NCBI GenBank assembly: GCA_017448975.1
Contig: JAFSKN010000062.1
Span: 1-43,430 of the forward strand
Direction of reading: 5' to 3'
From: Clostridia bacterium
GTDB lineage: Bacteria; Bacillota; Clostridia; Christensenellales; Aristaeellaceae
Length of the DNA stretch: 43,430 bases
Positions 21,799-31,538 of this stretch are shown one piece after another; the first letter of the stretch is position 1; each line of letters starts with the position of its first letter. Below the pieces are notes generated by a model. It made no database searches, was not told the origin of the DNA, and saw only the letters and a program-made list of their open reading frames with translations. A program made the translations under genes and the position numbers.

Positions 21799-21827
21799 AG
21801 TATACCAAAAAAACAGGCGAAATGCAA
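21799..21827 (-). promoter_or_regulatory. Promoter of the MoxR operon
   Basis: On the minus strand TTGCAT (21827-21822) and TATACT (21804-21799) are 17 bp apart. This places the transcription start near 21792 and rules out an upstream start codon for MoxR. Confidence 0.75.
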
Positions 21828-21912: not shown

Positions 21913-21941
21913 TTGACATTGTTCAGATATCGGTATATAAT
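21913..21941 (+). promoter_or_regulatory. Consensus promoter of the methyltransferase island
   Basis: A perfect TTGACA (21913-21918) and a perfect TATAAT (21936-21941) are 17 bp apart, 31 bp before the chosen ATG. It is the only strong promoter seen for the two-gene island, so both genes are probably transcribed together. Confidence 0.85.
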
Positions 21942-21972: not shown

Positions 21973-23007
21973 ATGGAGTACAAGACGACCATTGAAATGT
22001 CAAAAATTTGGGGAATATCTGAGCGGCGGATTGCCAGATTGTGCGCGGAAAAAAGAATTTCTGGCGTAAGAAAAATAGGGAAAGCATGGGCCATTCCGGA
22101 AAGTACGGAAAAACCAAATGATGCCCGTATTCACACAGGAAAGTATTGTAAAAATGTATCCTCTGTTCAAACCTTTTTAGAACCAAAGCCGTTGTCAGAA
22201 TTTGTAAACCGAGTATTTGAAGCGGATTGTCTCGATTTAATGCCAGAAATACCGGATGAATCGATTGATATGATCCTTTGTGACTTGCCTTATGGCGTTA
22301 CGCAAAATGCGTGGGACAGCTATATTCCTTTAGATCGGCTCTGGGAGCAGTACCTTAGAATTATAAAACCAAACGGTGTCATTGCATTAACGGCAAGTGG
22401 GGTTTTTACTGCCATGCTGATTATGAGTCAGCCGACATTATATAAATATAAATTGGTGTGGGAAAAATCAAAGCCCACAAATTTTCTGAACGCGAAAAAA
22501 CAGCCTCTTCGGAAACATGAGGATGTTTGTATCTTCTATAAAAAACAGCCAACCTATAATCCGCAAATGGGGCAAGGTGTCGCATATGATAAAGGTGTCC
22601 GCAAAGATCAGCTAAGCGGGAGCTATGGCGATTTTCAGCCCAAACACGTGTATAGCAGCGGCCAGCGTTATCCGACAGATGTAGTATATTTTAAAACTGC
22701 GGAATCAGAAGGGAAGGTTGTTCATCCGACTCAAAAACCGGTCGAATTAGGGCGCTATTTAATAAAAACATATACACAACCTGGCGATATTGTGCTTGAT
22801 AATGCTTGCGGAAGCGGCTCCTTCCTGGCTGCCGCTGTTCTTGAGGGAAGAAATTTTATTGGCATTGAAAAGAATGAGGATGTAACACTGTTTAAAAAAG
22901 AGCCTATTGATTATATCTCAATCTGCGAAGAACGCATCCGTGACGCATGGAACCTTACACCGATTGAAGAGAGGGATTCACTGCAATTGGTTGGGTTATT
23001 GGCGTAA
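21973..23007 (+). CDS. DNA methyltransferase with N-terminal helix-turn-helix domain
   Basis: The protein has 344 residues. The N-terminus (about 1-50) is a MerR/excisionase-like helix-turn-helix: EMSKIWGISERRIARLCAEK, then VRKIGKAWAIP. The rest is an amino-methyltransferase of the beta order, with catalytic motif IV DLPYGVTQNAWD first (about 107-118) and the AdoMet motif DNACGSGSF after (about 272-280). It should methylate adenine N6 or cytosine N4 in a specific DNA sequence. The HTH could bind DNA of its own promoter or help target recognition. The start is set by the promoter; the longer open frame from 21892 would run through it. Two bases separate its stop from the next frame. Base composition is clearly AT-richer than the flanking operons, suggesting transfer. 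Confidence 0.82.
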   Translation: MEYKTTIEMSKIWGISERRIARLCAEKRISGVRKIGKAWAIPESTEKPNDARIHTGKYCKNVSSVQTFLEPKPLSEFVNRVFEADCLDLMPEIPDESIDMILCDLPYGVTQNAWDSYIPLDRLWEQYLRIIKPNGVIALTASGVFTAMLIMSQPTLYKYKLVWEKSKPTNFLNAKKQPLRKHEDVCIFYKKQPTYNPQMGQGVAYDKGVRKDQLSGSYGDFQPKHVYSSGQRYPTDVVYFKTAESEGKVVHPTQKPVELGRYLIKTYTQPGDIVLDNACGSGSFLAAAVLEGRNFIGIEKNEDVTLFKKEPIDYISICEERIRDAWNLTPIEERDSLQLVGLLA

Positions 23008-23022
23008 ATGGAGGGAATTAAT

Positions 23023-25773
23023 ATGCCTTTAATCAGGAATAATGAACGCAGCGAGGCAATCAAACTCATATCTCATTTGAATACATTCCTGAACAATAAA
23101 ACATGGCGTATTGTTTGCGTTGGAGGGGAAAGCACAGTTTCCAACGGGAAAAAGCACATGTTTCCCGATGTAATTCTCTATGGCGACTCGTTTCAAACTC
23201 AGATATTGCAGGGCTGGGAACTGAAAATGCCGGACGTCCCGATTGACAATGAAGATTTTGTAAAAGACGCTCAAAGAAAAGCGATAACATTGGGGTTGAA
23301 CAACTGCTTCATATGGAATTTTACCTGCGGCGTTTTGTATGAACGCAACGAGGATGATACCTTTCGCGAGATCAAACGCTGGAATGATACAAACCACATT
23401 CGTTCAAGGCAGGATGTGGATTTATTCCGGTCTGATTGGCTGAAAGCAACTGAGTCTATTCTTGAGGATATCAACAGCTATTTTGTCAGTGGTCGCTTCC
23501 TTCCCGCGAATTTAGGCAATGTGATATCTGATAGTGTTTTATGCGAAATAATCAGGCGAAATAAGCATCCTCTTGCAGAATGGCTTAAAAACTGCGGACA
23601 GAAAGATGTACGCATACAAGTTCGTATTCAGAATTGGTGGGAACAAGTCAAAACGGAATATGCTTCTGATGAGAACGACGCTTATGCTGCCTATGCGCGA
23701 GTCATTATTGTCAATTGGTCAAATCGTATACTGTTCGCACATGTGATAAAAAAATTTCATGATCCTGCAAAACAGATCGAAATGCTTTCATATGAAACGA
23801 CACCTGTTCAAGTGAATGAGCTATTCCGCGCCATCAGCCAGGCTTGCGATTTCTATAATGTTTTTGCATCAATCGAATACAATGAAATGATACCTAACTG
23901 CATGTGGAATGACTTGATGGAATTAAATGAATTTCTGTCAAGCAATGCCATGTATCATGTGAATCAGACGGCATTGCAGGCCATACTGGAACACACTGTT
24001 TCCTCAGGAAAACGGGAGTTAAGCGGACAGTTTACAACGCCAGAAAAGCTGGCATTAATATTGGCAAAAATATCCATGCGTGATACCACGACCCCCTGCA
24101 TTGATCCCTGCTGCGGTACAGGCTCTATTGCCCAAGCAATGCTGATAAACAAGATGAATAATCATATTCCAATTGAATCAGCATATGCAACTACATGGGC
24201 GGCAGACAAGTTTTCTTTTCCTCTTCAAATCGCAAGTATCAGCATGGCGAGAGCAGATGCAATCAACCAACCGATAAAGATGTTTCAAAGAAATGCTTTT
24301 TCTTTGGCACCTGATCAAAAAATCACATTGGTAAACCCAGAAACAGGAGCCTTACTGACTTGTAAATTGCCTCAATTTGATACAATCGCCTCGAACCTGC
24401 CGTTTGTTCCATTTGAAATCATTGAAGAAGATGAATTGAAATACATTGGTGATATTCATGCGAGTGTTAATCGGAATACTGGTATTTGTCTCGATGACCG
24501 CATGGATATATACCAGAACCTTATTTTTGCCTTTTATCCGCTGTTGAATAACGAAGGACGCTTGGGAGTTATCACATCCAATTCGTGGCTTGGGACGAAA
24601 ACGGGACGTCAATTTTTTGAGGCATTATGCTGGTATTATTATGTTGAACAAGTACATATCAGCGGAAAAGGAAGATGGTTTCATAATGCTGATATTGTTG
24701 CAACAATCCTCATACTATCAAAAAAACGGGAAATCAGCAAACCAACAGGCGACAATAACACACATTTTTATATTTGGAAGAAAGCATTGCAAGACTTCGA
24801 TGCCGCTGAAATCAATGCGATTGTTCAAGACGCAATTCTTAACGAATGCCATCATCCAGACCAATTGGCGATGTCGGTTTATAAAAAATCAGATATTGAT
24901 AAACTATTGGATATGAAAGTTTCCCTCAATGCGCTATTCTATAATATTACTTGGTTAAAGGATTTGAAGAACATTGTTTGTCCAATTACGGATTATCTAA
25001 GCGTTACCAGAGGTGAGCGCAGGGGCTGGGACAAAATGTTTTATCCAAAAGCTGGTCATGGAATAGAAACGAAATATATCAGAAAAGTGCTGAAAAGCAG
25101 CAGACAGCTTGATTCACTTTGCGCTATGCCAGACAGCGATGCGTTTTGCTGTTCGGATAGTCTTTCAGATATGAAAAAAGCAGGGCGCAGAGGAGCGTTA
25201 AAATGGATACGTTCTTTTGAAAATGCTGTCAATAATACTGGCAAACCGCTCAAGAAAGTGTTATCGCGTACCAATATGTATTGGTATGAAATGCGTGATA
25301 CGGCAACCGCTGATTTTGTTACTGGAATGAATCCGGATAAAAGGCTATTCATAGCGAAGTTTGACAACCCCACTTTTGTTAATCAACGGCTTATTGCATT
25401 TAAGCAAATTAATCAATCGGTCGATGCAAATTTATTGCATGCGTTATTGAATTCAATTATTGGAATGTTCTATATTGAGGCGATTGGTTTTGGAAGAGGG
25501 TTAGGCGCACTGGATATAAATGCTACCAATATTCGATCTATGATGATTCTGAACCCTGCTCTTCTGACAGAGCAAAATAAAAAAGAAATCCTAACTGCAT
25601 TTCTCCCATTGAAAAGCAGAAGTATTTTGGGAACAGCAGAGGAACTTAAACAGCAGGATCGTATTCATTTTGACCATATTGTATTACAGGCGTTTGGTGC
25701 TGATCGGCATTATGAAAACATTCGGGCAGCGCTGCTGTCAATGCAACAGGTTCGGTATACAGTAAAAGAGTGA
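23023..25773 (+). CDS. Type IIG-like restriction-modification enzyme: nuclease plus N6-adenine methyltransferase
   Basis: The protein has 916 residues. The N-terminal part contains FPDVILYGDS and then ILQGWELKMPD (about residues 47-71). This is a PD-x(14)-ELK layout that fits a PD-(D/E)XK nuclease. A helical region follows (about 150-320), then a gamma-type N6-methyltransferase with motif I DPCCGTGS (near 363) and motif IV NLPF (near 460; the usual form is NPPY/F). A C-terminal segment (about 640-916) with ISVTRGERRGWDKMFYP-like sequence could hold the target recognition domain. GGAGGG at 23010-23015 serves the ATG at 23023 rather than that at 23008. It forms an operon with the HTH methyltransferase. 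It may also be a defence enzyme of another class. Confidence 0.72.
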   Translation: MPLIRNNERSEAIKLISHLNTFLNNKTWRIVCVGGESTVSNGKKHMFPDVILYGDSFQTQILQGWELKMPDVPIDNEDFVKDAQRKAITLGLNNCFIWNFTCGVLYERNEDDTFREIKRWNDTNHIRSRQDVDLFRSDWLKATESILEDINSYFVSGRFLPANLGNVISDSVLCEIIRRNKHPLAEWLKNCGQKDVRIQVRIQNWWEQVKTEYASDENDAYAAYARVIIVNWSNRILFAHVIKKFHDPAKQIEMLSYETTPVQVNELFRAISQACDFYNVFASIEYNEMIPNCMWNDLMELNEFLSSNAMYHVNQTALQAILEHTVSSGKRELSGQFTTPEKLALILAKISMRDTTTPCIDPCCGTGSIAQAMLINKMNNHIPIESAYATTWAADKFSFPLQIASISMARADAINQPIKMFQRNAFSLAPDQKITLVNPETGALLTCKLPQFDTIASNLPFVPFEIIEEDELKYIGDIHASVNRNTGICLDDRMDIYQNLIFAFYPLLNNEGRLGVITSNSWLGTKTGRQFFEALCWYYYVEQVHISGKGRWFHNADIVATILILSKKREISKPTGDNNTHFYIWKKALQDFDAAEINAIVQDAILNECHHPDQLAMSVYKKSDIDKLLDMKVSLNALFYNITWLKDLKNIVCPITDYLSVTRGERRGWDKMFYPKAGHGIETKYIRKVLKSSRQLDSLCAMPDSDAFCCSDSLSDMKKAGRRGALKWIRSFENAVNNTGKPLKKVLSRTNMYWYEMRDTATADFVTGMNPDKRLFIAKFDNPTFVNQRLIAFKQINQSVDANLLHALLNSIIGMFYIEAIGFGRGLGALDINATNIRSMMILNPALLTEQNKKEILTAFLPLKSRSILGTAEELKQQDRIHFDHIVLQAFGADRHYENIRAALLSMQQVRYTVKE

Positions 25774-25840
25774 GGCTCCAACAATTATAGAGCTTCAAAG
25801 GATTGAAATAAAACGAAATCATGAGCGTCGCAAACATTTT

Positions 25841-25875
25841 CTGACGACGGAATTTTCCGTCGTCGGATTTTCCTC
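25841..25875 (+). terminator. Terminator of the methyltransferase island
   Basis: GACGACGGAA (25843-25852) and TTCCGTCGTC (25855-25864) form a perfect ten-base inverted repeat with a tight loop, followed by GGATTTTCC. The T-run is short, but the hairpin lies just after the operon. Confidence 0.7.
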
Positions 25876-25904
25876 TTGCATTTTCCCCGGAACAGTGCTA
25901 TGAT
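25876..25904 (+). promoter_or_regulatory. Promoter of the serS T-box transcript
   Basis: TTGCAT (25876-25881) and TATGAT (25899-25904) are 17 bp apart, immediately after the island terminator and just before the T-box leader. Confidence 0.72.
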
Positions 25905-25910
25905 TATCGG

Positions 25911-26130
25911 GAAACGCGACGATGGGACAAAGCAGCGGGCGTTCCGTTCAGAGAGCTGCCGGGCGGTGCAAGGCAGAGGGAAAACGCTGTGATCCGGCCC
26001 GGAGCGGGCGGCGACGAGCCGCCGGGGTGCGCCCCCTACAGCGCGCGCGAGCGGCGCGGTTTTTCCGCGCAAGCTGGGTGGCAACGCGGAAAACTTCCGT
26101 CCCAGGAAAGAGGACAGGAAGGTTTTTTTA
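25911..26130 (+). promoter_or_regulatory. T-box riboswitch leader of serS
   Basis: The leader shows a Stem I region with AGAGAG, then the specifier TCC (25993-25995), a serine codon, followed ten bases later by GGAGC spacing equal to that in the ileS leader. The T-box sequence GGGTGGCAACGCGG lies at 26075-26088. The terminator stem CTTCCGTCC / GGACAGGAAG (one bulge) with a seven-T run ends near 26129. Uncharged tRNA-Ser should trigger antitermination. Confidence 0.92.
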
Positions 26131-26243: not shown

Positions 26244-26306
26244 CCACACTGATCGAAAGCGCGGCTGAGTTGCCAAATCATTTTATTTTTGAAAGGACGT
26301 GCCTCC

Positions 26307-27587
26307 ATGATCGACATTAACCTGATTCGCACTAACCCCGACCTGGTGAAGGAAAACATCAAAAAGAAGTTTCAGGATCAAAAGCTGCCCCTGGTGGACG
26401 AAGTGATCGAGCTGGACAAAAAGAACCGCGAAGCCATTCAGCGGGCGGATTTCCTGCGTTCCCAGCGCAACAAGATCAGCAAGCAGATCGGCGCGCTGAT
26501 GGGCCAGGGCAAGAAGGACGAGGCCGAGGCCGCCAAGCAGCAGGTCAAGGACATGCAGGACGAAATGGCCGCCCTGGAAGCCAAGGAAACGGAATACGCC
26601 GAGGAAATCAAAAAGCGCATGATGGTGATCCCCAACATCATTGACGCTTCCGTGCCCATCGGCAAGGACGACAGCCAGAACGTGGAAAACGAGCGCTTCG
26701 GCGAGCCCGTGGTGCCTGCCTGGGAAATCCCCTATCATGTGGACATCATGGAGCGGCTGAACGGCATCGATCTGGATTCCGCCCGCCGCACCTCCGGCAA
26801 CGGTTTCTACTATCTGAAAGGCGATATTGCCCGGCTGCACAGCGCCATCCTTTCCTACGCCCGGGATTTCATGATCGACCGGGGATTCACCTACTACGTG
26901 CCCCCCTTCATGATCCGTTCCGCCGTGGTGAACGGCGTCATGAGCTTTACCGAAATGGAAAACATGATGTACAAGATCGAGGGCGAGGACCTCTACCTGA
27001 TCGGCACCAGCGAGCACAGCATGATCGGCAAGTTCATCGACCAGATTTTGGACGAAGCCGACCTGCCCCAGACCCTGACCTCCTATTCCCCCTGCTTCCG
27101 CAAGGAAGTGGGCGCTCACGGCATCGAGGAACGCGGCGTGTACCGCATCCACCAGTTCGAGAAGCAGGAAATGATCGTGGTCTGCAAGCCCGAGGACAGC
27201 ATGATGTGGTATGACCGCCTGTGGCAGAACACCGTGGACTTCTTCCGCAGCATGGATATCCCCGTGCGCACGCTCGAATGCTGCTCCGGCGATTTGGCCG
27301 ACCTGAAAGTAAAGTCCTGCGACGTGGAAGCCTGGAGCCCCCGCCAGCAGAAATACTTTGAAGTGGGCAGCTGCTCCAATTTGGGCGACGCCCAGGCCCG
27401 CCGTTTGGGCATTCGCGTCAAGGGCGCGGACGGAAAAAAGTACCTAGCCCACACCCTGAACAACACGGTGGTGGCCCCGCCCCGCATGCTGATCGCTTTC
27501 CTGGAAAACAACCTCCAGGCCGACGGCACTATCCGCATCCCCGAACCGCTGCAAAAGTACATGGGCTTCAAGGACAAAATCGGCTGA
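26307..27587 (+). CDS. serS: Seryl-tRNA synthetase
   Basis: SerRS charges tRNA-Ser (and tRNA-Sec) with serine. The 426-residue protein starts MIDINLIRTNP, the typical bacterial opening, followed by the long antiparallel coiled coil (about 30-100) that grips the tRNA variable arm. The class II core includes YLIGTSEHSMIG, SPCFRKEVGAHG(I/V)EERGVYRIHQFEKQEM (motif 2) and LNNTVVAPPRMLIAFLENNLQADG (motif 3, with GTIRIPEPL). AAAGGA lies nine bases before the ATG at 26307, so the frame's earlier start at 26289 is not used. Regulation is by the T-box upstream. Confidence 0.96.
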   Translation: MIDINLIRTNPDLVKENIKKKFQDQKLPLVDEVIELDKKNREAIQRADFLRSQRNKISKQIGALMGQGKKDEAEAAKQQVKDMQDEMAALEAKETEYAEEIKKRMMVIPNIIDASVPIGKDDSQNVENERFGEPVVPAWEIPYHVDIMERLNGIDLDSARRTSGNGFYYLKGDIARLHSAILSYARDFMIDRGFTYYVPPFMIRSAVVNGVMSFTEMENMMYKIEGEDLYLIGTSEHSMIGKFIDQILDEADLPQTLTSYSPCFRKEVGAHGIEERGVYRIHQFEKQEMIVVCKPEDSMMWYDRLWQNTVDFFRSMDIPVRTLECCSGDLADLKVKSCDVEAWSPRQQKYFEVGSCSNLGDAQARRLGIRVKGADGKKYLAHTLNNTVVAPPRMLIAFLENNLQADGTIRIPEPLQKYMGFKDKIG

Positions 27588-28673: not shown

Positions 28674-28964
28674 TCATTTCCGCACGGATTCCTGCTTCAC
28701 TGCTGTCTCCACTATTCCCTTCAACTGCGCCACACCCGCTTCCATTTTTTCGCGATACTTCCTGTCTATCCTTTTACGAATCTGTATGTAGGCAATATCA
28801 ATATAATAATGGATGGTCTGTCCGGCCTTTATAAGAGCTTGGATGGGACGGGGCAGCCGTTCAAACGCTGCCTTTTTGTGTGTATAGTCCTCTGCTATCT
28901 GGCCGAGGGCTTTTTGTACACGTTGCTGTTCCCATTCCTCACTATAGGGGTTCCAATTTCCCAT
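28674..28964 (-). CDS. Small uncharacterised protein, intact copy of a duplicated family
   Basis: This 96-residue, charged, mostly helical protein has no signal peptide. It starts MGNWNPYSEEWEQQRVQ and contains RLPRPIQALIKAGQ (about 36-49) and RKYREKMEAGV (about 69-79). I recognise no family. A second copy at 30783-31073 is clearly homologous but broken. The gene is divergent from an HTH regulator, with a perfect palindrome in the 104-bp gap, so it is probably controlled by that regulator. A toxin-antitoxin or regulatory role is possible but unproven. Confidence 0.65.
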   Translation of the reverse strand: MGNWNPYSEEWEQQRVQKALGQIAEDYTHKKAAFERLPRPIQALIKAGQTIHYYIDIAYIQIRKRIDRKYREKMEAGVAQLKGIVETAVKQESVRK

Positions 28965-30782: not shown

Positions 30783-31073
30783 TTACTGGTCTTTCTCTTG
30801 AGGCGGGTGAGGGGTCTTCGCCGCCATTTCCACCAACTTCTTTATCTCCTCCACGCCCGCTTCCATCTCTTCGCGATACTTCCAGTCAACCTTTTTTCCG
30901 AAGGTAGATACGGAAGATGGTCAGGGCTGCCCGGCACGCACAAGAGCTTGGATAGGACGCGGCAGCTTTTCAAAAGCGGCTTTCTGCCGGAGATACTTTT
31001 CTGTGGCTTCGTCAAGCGTCTTCTTGATGCGTTGCCTTTCCCATTCCTCGCTGTAGGGACTGAAATTGCCCAT
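30783..31073 (-). pseudogene. Broken second copy of the small uncharacterised protein
   Basis: The start MGNFSPYSEEWERQRIKK and KLPRPIQALVRAGQP match the intact protein at 28674-28964. A TGA then stops the frame at 30921-30923. The downstream part still encodes KKVDWKYREEMEAGVEEIKK, homologous to the intact C-terminal half, and the segment between carries indels relative to the intact copy. Both copies span 291 bases. The regulator and operator that accompany the intact copy are missing upstream. Confidence 0.8.
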
Positions 31074-31538
31074 GGTTCCTCGTGCACATTCACAGCCGGC
31101 CTTACGCCCAGAATAAGCGACGTGGTGTTTCATGTGACAGTATTCGACATGGGATGCGGCGAATCCTGCCAAAGGAAGAATAAGAAAAGCCCACCATGTA
31201 AGCATCATCCCTCCCCTGGAACGGGGTAGGATGAAAGCCACAAGGCGGCGCTAAAATGAAGCACGAGAAACGGCAGTACTGAATACCCCCGTCCCTTTCA
31301 CAGCGGCAGACTGGCGTTCCAGACGTGGCCTTCAGCATAAAGGCAGCACGCATGTGAGAGACGCCAGGCGGCAGGTCGGCGTGTGGAAGTTGGCAGTCTG
31401 GTGAATAATACCTCGTCCCTTTCCTTGCGGCAGACTGGCGTGCGCTGTAGAAGCCAACGTGAGCGATTTTCAGCTCTACACCCGCCCGATTACCCGGTTT
31501 AGGGGGAGTTTGTTTCGGAGATTTTCATTTTGGCATGA
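31074..31538. other. Non-coding remnant of the duplicated locus
   Basis: No gene is supported in these 465 bases. Locus B here lacks the HTH gene and operator. From about 31180 it matches the sequence after the HTH stop codon in locus A: the structured element at 31183-31250, then two copies of a motif with CGCCAGTCTGCCGC and GAAAGGGACG (near 31290-31315 and 31410-31440), then the 28-base identical block at 31447-31474. Confidence 0.65.
31183..31250 (-). terminator. Structured terminator-like element B
   Basis: GCCCACC (31189-31195) and GGCGGC (31244-31249) form the imperfect outer stem. The inner CATCATCCC / GGGTAGGATG pair is identical to that of element A. The minus-strand T-run is interrupted (TTTTCTT), so it may work less well than element A. 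Confidence 0.6.

Follow-up and report, generated by a model that had tools for sequence, protein, structure and literature searches.

Introduction

Can a helix-turn-helix (HTH) module fused to a DNA methyltransferase control the restriction operon that encodes it? This question is raised by a two-gene island from a Clostridia bacterium (GenBank assembly GCA_017448975.1, contig JAFSKN010000062.1), lying in a stretch of 43,430 nucleotides that was analysed over its full length and is called the window in the following. A preliminary description had recognised an HTH-fused methyltransferase (gene 1) followed by a nuclease-methyltransferase fusion (gene 2), and had taken the pair for a candidate new restriction variant in which the HTH might couple methylation to autoregulation. 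How defence operons are silenced and switched on has been little studied so far, as stated in passages of PMC12255303 and PMC9122601.

We consider it probable that the two genes make up a complete type IIG restriction-modification system, autoregulated by the HTH of its own methyltransferase. Gene content, motifs and their conservation, the near-obligate pairing of the two genes, the promoter and a promoter spacer kept in register across genes sharing only the HTH are all read from the sequence. Type IIG restriction with a companion methyltransferase would be the best-supported biochemistry, as judged from the family, and repression of the operon by an HTH occupying the promoter spacer appears to be the most likely mode of control. 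The enzyme pair is not new; the HTH on the companion methyltransferase is an extra piece, rare in the type IIG family and common in the class.

The enzyme pair

Gene 2 matches the PADLOC model REase_MTase_IIG (PDLC03606) over residues 8–920 of 921 (E 7.6e-251) and carries PF02384/PF07669, combining an N-terminal nuclease, a gamma-type methyltransferase and a putative specificity region, assigned to 661–850 from its position, in one chain. This end-to-end match to an existing model speaks against a restriction variant that is new by architecture. The motif DPCCGTG precedes SNLPF in the sequence, an order which we take to place the enzyme in the gamma class. Matches to solved chains at E 0.01 cover the methyltransferase part only. 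The nuclease motif is PD-x(16)-ELK (P53, D54, E71, K73), so that the preliminary description was right about a nuclease joined to an N6-adenine methyltransferase and wrong about the spacing, given there as PD-x(14)-ELK. Its length of 916 residues holds: the first ATG gives 921 residues, and the second, at 23023, is the better start because of a GGAGG just upstream.

All 46 loci, the window among them, retain D54, E71 and K73. Selection contributes to this figure, since one search pattern contained GWE[LFA]K; the three residues are also kept in all seven rows (window included) that were fetched without this pattern. Thus homologues retain the nuclease residues whose loss had been named as an argument against the assignment, and a degenerate nuclease in gene 2 was rejected. 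The methyltransferase motif residues are likewise kept in 46 of 46 loci. The putative specificity region is about as conserved as the nuclease and methyltransferase parts (mean identity 0.43 vs 0.42 and 0.37), as would be expected if the companion keeps the recognition site constant, an argument made for Eco57I in a part of PMC3874165.

The 344-residue product of gene 1 shows an HTH_17 match at residues 5–44 (E 8e-5, below the Pfam cut-off) and an N-terminal match to an excisionase PHROG (E 8.9e-6), in agreement with the excisionase-like HTH described before. Its methyltransferase domain is PF01555 (E 3e-25), and the domain scan gave no match to a C5 methyltransferase family. DLPYG stands ahead of DNACGSG in the sequence, placing the enzyme in the beta class.

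The gene 2 family is rare and scattered, being present, within the order, in 2 of 396 genomes and, within the phylum, in 3 of 398, with the window's own genome in both counts. It also occurs in 13 plasmid records, 6 of them covering at least 80%, and on 9 viral contigs, and a pattern search of GTDB contigs gave at least 52 loci, at least 39 of which carry the family. The hosts include Bacillota, Bacteroidota, Pseudomonadota, Planctomycetota and Campylobacterota. A gene 1 homologue is found in the locus for 46 of the 47 full-length large open reading frames (ORFs; window included), lying directly upstream on the same strand in 43 of these 46, within the same ORF in two and elsewhere in one. The search for the same pair in other genomes, which had been proposed as a check, thus recovered it, and the pair turned out, contrary to what had been supposed, not to be unusual: an upstream companion methyltransferase is the rule of the family, and the idea of a new restriction architecture was rejected. 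Left out were 13 weak loci (L134–L146) from the family analysis and L092 and L094, as second copies or pieces, from the locus comparison; L119, whose contig stretch starts inside the large gene, was counted as lacking the companion.

Mean identity across the family is 69% for the companion and 37% for the large protein, and the identity matrices of the two correlate with r 0.77 (41 non-redundant pairs; none of 2000 permutations as high). Gene 1 as a purely phage-borne solitary enzyme was rejected, as the two proteins co-vary within the system. Among viral methyltransferase loci (80 kept of 130 found) 77 show no large gene in the stretch covered, some of these stretches being short.

Several members of the family deserve mention on their own. 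In L096 (5017–8718) and L121 (5101–8742) the beta-class methyltransferase and the type IIG protein form one ORF of 1234 and 1214 codons, respectively. Each groups with an unfused relative in a different starred branch of the tree, and we read the fusions as two separate events, a reading that the group table, which counts four rows, does not force. Both keep a start codon and a Shine-Dalgarno-like run at the junction, making separate translation of the second part possible. In L093/L094 (G669) about 20 kb separate the two parts of the gene 2 relative, the break falling between model positions 573 and 583 and adjoining an ORF named TnpB-like by eye. By eye as well, the companion of L102 (4387–5997, Parcubacteria) lies in frame behind a RadC-like protein, and the companions of L112 (4814–5980) and L115 (4713–5966), two related systems, have a different N-terminal extension of about 100 residues in common.

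Within the type IIG family the HTH is confined to the window and to L086 (G251, same order) among 56 loci examined, and none was found on the 80 viral methyltransferase loci kept. The window and L086 sit in a five-row group (83/93) beside three rows without HTH, a topology that would imply either one gain with losses or two gains.

A putative operator in the promoter spacer

When the HTH genes are aligned on their promoters, the part common to most of them sits in the spacer between the -35 and -10 boxes, in one register. Examples are ttgaca TTATTCCGATATAGGAA tataat (L165, Fic), ttgcta TTATTCGAGATTTAGAA tataat (L173, D12), ttgact TTCTTCCGTAAAAAGTA tataat (L086) and ttgaca TTGTTCAGATATCGGTA tataat (window). 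We formulated this as a rule, TTC at spacer positions 4–6. As the rule came from aligning the first set of genes on the promoter, this is the discovery set, in which 26 of 32 promoter calls have TTC, or 13 of 19 once the D12 group is removed, and two further sets served as tests. In the second, taken from other orders of the class with the rule fixed beforehand, TTC is found in 20 of 26 calls where 0.65 are expected, and in the third in 17 of 39 (expected 0.81). Promoter calls were lacking for one, three and one genes of the three sets, respectively, and L257 was left out of the second set as a repeat of L002. Three groups of control promoter calls showed no TTC at this place: 0 of 194 in random windows (overlapping windows of loci L156–L252, comprising HTH, methyltransferase, viral and congener stretches with the HTH promoters excluded), 0 of 9 in the window and 0 of 48 in overlapping windows of the third-set loci. 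At type IIG loci without HTH it occurs in 1 of 34 calls (L126; the HTH-bearing L086 is not counted).

A matrix built from 39 other spacers, using no window data, places the window spacer third among 86,828 17-mers of the window (fourth if one D12 spacer is added to the matrix) and first among 71 promoter calls, with a letter-shuffle P of 1e-4. In addition, the operator-promoter pattern was searched in 245 genomes and gave 67 matches vs 9 for the reversed pattern. Thirty of the 67 were inspected, and in 15 of them an HTH follows within 200 nt downstream. Nine of these 15 are genes found in none of the three sets; the other six had been included before, the window and L173 as members of the discovery set. 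In the host genome both matches precede an HTH.

The spacer also changes together with the recognition helix, as we saw from the 101 HTH genes of the three sets without correction for relatedness. Helices of the type RR..LC go along with TTC in 57 of 66 promoter calls and with TGCCGA in none of the 66, while none of the 9 calls with RS..YC helices has TTC and 7 have TGCCGA (Fisher 4e-7 for TTC and 2e-8 for TGCCGA, relatedness uncorrected). Other helix types have TTC in 5 of 21 calls; L317, L330, L336, L338 and L349 were counted here, of which L330, L338 and L349 are RR..LC by eye, changing the count for this type to 58 of 69. TGCCGA can be regarded as a putative second type of spacer operator that accompanies an altered recognition helix within this HTH family, as in L171, L280, L328 and L337.

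These data bear on the possibility that the system is an ordinary type IIG system in which HTH and promoter arrived as an inert cassette, the likeness of the spacers reflecting common descent and not binding. The HTH genes of single subgroups such as the D12 group are indeed homologous and have near-identical promoters. However, the spacer sequence recurs in fixed register before genes with unrelated C-terminal parts, and it varies with the recognition helix (relatedness not corrected), and we therefore regard an inert cassette as rather improbable.

The position of the common sequence also raises the question of its sign. MerR regulators bind between the -35 and -10 boxes, exactly where it lies, and the HTH might accordingly activate in the manner of MerR instead of repressing. 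MerR-type activation uses spacers of 19–20 bp. Nearly all best promoter calls have a spacer of 17 bp here (spacers were scanned up to 18), and the boxes of the window, agreeing with the consensus in 12 of 12 positions, should need no help. Activation is disfavoured because the spacer has this standard length, and we consider it very unlikely.

An earlier operator guess was given up. Exact direct repeats upstream of several HTH genes share the core ATTCCGWWAA, which gave, with one mismatch allowed, 15 forward and 0 reverse matches in 33 upstream regions (shuffle means 1.4 and 1.8). It had been read off the same sequences, fits a part of the HTH genes and misses the window, and was dropped for the spacer rule. 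Pairs of this motif are not enriched in 8 genomes (23 sites vs 22 for the reversed pattern); 5 of the 23 sites lie at four HTH genes.

Repression through the spacer remains our preferred reading, and the following points weigh against it. Nearly all other members of the type IIG family lack the HTH, so that systems of this kind can do without it. Of the third set's 39 promoter calls, 22 break the TTC rule, and the control from type IIG loci without HTH is weak because only 10 of its promoter calls score 9.5 or more. The window spacer has an A after TTC, which is unfavourable in the matrix (score -2.3), and the window contains a single operator copy without upstream repeats like those at L086, L174 and L189. 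Identical promoters occur across the rows L340/L341, L320/L279, L328/L280 and L337/L171, so that the TTC counts are not independent, and promoter and HTH may have been passed down as a unit among related HTH genes. Finally, half of the inspected sites of the reverse search (15 of 30) lack an HTH, and the pattern thus also has chance or unrelated matches. Taken with the evidence above, the autoregulation suggested in the preliminary description gains support from the comparison of operators and stays short of proof.

The HTH module and defence genes

Outside the type IIG family the HTH module is common: a search at E 1e-4 or better found it in 47 of 151 genomes of the order, and one with a consensus query at E 1e-6 or better in 59 of 118 of the class. 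Fusions join it to Fic proteins, D12 and C5 methyltransferases, AAA-PDDEXK proteins, DUF815, ATPases and others; as a stand-alone protein of 60–70 residues it precedes Schlafen/AlbA proteins, C5 methyltransferases and ATPases. The HTH fusion is therefore no singular design.

This distribution helps to judge whether the HTH merely adds DNA contacts that guide or tether the methyltransferase, as a second specificity element with no role in transcription. Such a function would suit an HTH fused to a DNA methyltransferase, and the relatives L112 and L115 show that another N-terminal addition is found at the same enzyme. Against it, the same HTH also occurs as a stand-alone protein upstream of genes that encode no methyltransferase, and the TTC rule holds at many of the stand-alone HTH genes too, making tethering quite improbable.

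The host genome contains three HTH copies, the window's included. One of them (L003) is fused to an AAA-ATPase/PDDEXK_9 protein and another (L002 1480–1725, on C61) is a stand-alone HTH with an in-frame TGA, which lies behind a promoter spacer of the same type as in the window and directly upstream of a type I methyltransferase (MTase_I, E 1e-253). Since all three copies have TTC at spacer positions 4–6, they could read each other's operators, and the methyltransferase of the window might control or be controlled by the type I methyltransferase (C61) and the AAA-PDDEXK protein (C54). The copies are not alike in their recognition helices or in the remainder of the spacer, and we hold regulation in trans to be unlikely.

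For 25 of the 29 genes of the second set a fused or downstream partner could be compared with PADLOC models, the other four having no downstream ORF of 100 residues. Nineteen of the 25 partners match at 1e-10 or better (6/6, 6/10 and 7/9 by batch), compared with 0 of 20 ORFs on the other side of the HTH genes (Fisher 7e-8); the latter are 20 of 24 upstream-side ORFs of at least 180 residues and may include non-genes. Among the 19 matches are 8 to Fic-type candidate models and 4 methyltransferases, and named matches comprise GajA (L271), LmuA (L264), Tmn (L260) and DrmMII (L278). L254 and L262 match only part of a pAgo model. One batch of 10 proteins was hand-picked, with 8 matches, 6 of them in the second set.

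The best reading of these data might be that the window is one case of an autoregulator common to many defence genes. More tentatively, and with some reserve, we propose that the HTH module of about 60 residues and its own promoter-spacer operator form a cassette which is passed around and serves as a general autoregulator of anti-phage genes in the class. Its targets, fused or directly downstream, would comprise type IIG, type I and orphan methyltransferases, Fic proteins and proteins matching the models of Gabija GajA, Lamassu LmuA, Tmn and DISARM DrmMII. In the window the module is fused to the protective methyltransferase, and the enzyme that labels self DNA would then also signal the entry of foreign DNA, by departing from its operator once unmethylated sites turn up.

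Should the module bind the spacer, the regulation of many unrelated defence genes would be predictable from one short rule (TTC at positions 4–6, or TGCCGA for RS..YC helices), and the spacer mark could point to undescribed defence genes downstream. The HTH-methyltransferase fusion would be a simple and testable sensor design. Furthermore, the type IIG family lends itself well to studies of how such pairs evolve, given its highly conserved companion and the two one-ORF forms.

Proposed mechanism

What follows is a model, in which binding of DNA, its repressing (not activating) effect, the strand specificity, titration and the restriction of phage are inferred. Gene 2 would recognise an asymmetric site by its C-terminal region, methylate one strand with the gamma-type domain and cut unmethylated incoming DNA with the N-terminal PD-(D/E)XK domain. 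Protection of the host would fall to the methyltransferase of gene 1, which would most likely methylate the other strand or both strands. The HTH of this protein would bind the 17-bp spacer of the one strong promoter of the operon and block RNA polymerase, and the methyltransferase would thereby limit the output of both genes in a negative feedback loop. Unmethylated sites, for example on entering phage DNA, may draw the protein off the operator and let expression rise, a step that is our own extension by analogy with M.SsoII.

Layout of the locus

ORFs, gene order, strand and AT-richness are as described before, the island having 39–43% GC over 22001–26000 vs 55–67% in the two flanking 1-kb windows on each side. 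The claim of a perfect promoter also proved correct, TTGACA-17-TATAAT at 21913–21941 agreeing with the consensus in 12 of 12 positions. All features are collected in Table 1.

Table 1: Coordinates of the operon and its proposed control elements in the window.
Feature	Position	Strand	Basis
-35 box TTGACA	21913..21918	+	12/12 consensus promoter, 17-bp spacer
Proposed (predicted) operator of the HTH module, whole promoter spacer TTGTTCAGATATCGGTA	21919..21935	+	TTC at 21922–21924, G at 21933; matrix rank and register common to other HTH genes
-10 box TATAAT	21936..21941	+	promoter scan
Gene 1, 344-aa HTH-fused beta-class N6-adenine DNA methyltransferase (companion)	21973..23007	+	ORF and domain matches
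HTH_17-like (MerR/excisionase-type) N-terminal module	21973..22146	+	recognition helix SERRIARLC, assigned by eye
Gene 2, type IIG nuclease-methyltransferase, 921 aa (916 aa from ATG 23023)	23008..25773	+	ORF and model matches
PD-x16-ELK nuclease motif, residues 53–73	23164..23226	+	read from sequence, conserved in family
Terminator-like stem of 12 pairs, then T-rich tail	25840..25867	+	terminator scan

Gene 2 begins directly after gene 1. No separate XRE-type controller (C) gene is present in the operon, since 31 nt between the -10 box and gene 1, 0 nt between the genes and 66 nt between gene 2 and the terminator stem leave no room for one. A search upstream of gene 1 for exact inverted repeats with arms of at least 5 and a gap of at most 12 found none, and exact direct repeats at this promoter are no longer than chance allows (P 0.91 for the longest). 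The repeat search did return an imperfect 16-nt direct repeat (81%, at 21818 and 21852) near the promoter and one imperfect palindrome spanning the -35 box.

In the congeners G155 and G243 other genes adjoin the same AAA gene, and these two genomes thus offer no clean empty site for the island. To the right of the island lies serS (26289–27587), for which four of six other genomes of the host's taxonomic family, both congeners among them, have no match at E 1e-80 or better, and the remaining two match at 79–85% identity; serS was either gained or replaced in the host genome, or the other genomes use a divergent enzyme. Two small proteins that appear similar by eye (...PYSEEWE..R....KAAFE.LPRPIQAL..AGQ...) are encoded about 2 kb apart on the minus strand at 28674–28964 and 30921–31241.

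Comparison with known systems

Among the matches listed we found no published account of the HTH module, the spacer operator or an HTH-fused type IIG companion; most subscription journals and bioRxiv preprints lay outside the scope of this search, so that novelty is unproven. On the enzyme side, PDLC03606 matches gene 2 over its full length and does not cover gene 1 or the HTH. Monomeric enzymes of the Eco57I type consist of an R-gammaM-S polypeptide and a companion methyltransferase gene whose product methylates both strands, according to excerpts of PMC3874165 and PMC4081073. A separate methyltransferase gene accompanies the R-gammaM-S enzyme here too, but the Eco57I companion is a gamma-methyltransferase, whereas that of the window is of the beta class by motif order and carries an HTH.

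Different regulators can be compared with the HTH. The solved C proteins belong to the Xre family (in part of PMC3978073), and a C protein fused to a restriction enzyme has been reported (in part of PMC3850674); there the regulator is joined to the nuclease, while in the window the HTH is joined to the methyltransferase. WYL regulators are a further analogue (passages of PMC9122601). RptR, as presented in sections of PMC12255303, is a small autoregulator upstream of type I restriction genes with a conserved promoter-overlapping operator in direct repeats; its operator TAGCTA overlaps the -10 box, a difference taken from the published description. BldC, a developmental regulator, is a short MerR-like protein binding direct repeats (excerpt of PMC5859096), and direct repeats also lie upstream of L086, L174 and L189. 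A profile search of PDB sequences with the HTH gave two weak matches, neither of them named BldC.

A published precedent for the fusion is the M.SsoII type, which like gene 1 combines an N-terminal HTH with a methyltransferase. According to passages of PMC3978073, M.SsoII carries the HTH region on its protective methyltransferase, represses its own promoter and alternates between methylation sites and its operator, and M.EcoRII and M1.LlaJI-type methyltransferases also have regulatory activity. M.SsoII, M.EcoRII and M1.LlaJI are C5 methyltransferases, whereas the window combines an N6-adenine methyltransferase of the beta class, a type IIG enzyme and an HTH_17-like domain, with one strong promoter ahead of both genes as a further difference from the M.SsoII type.

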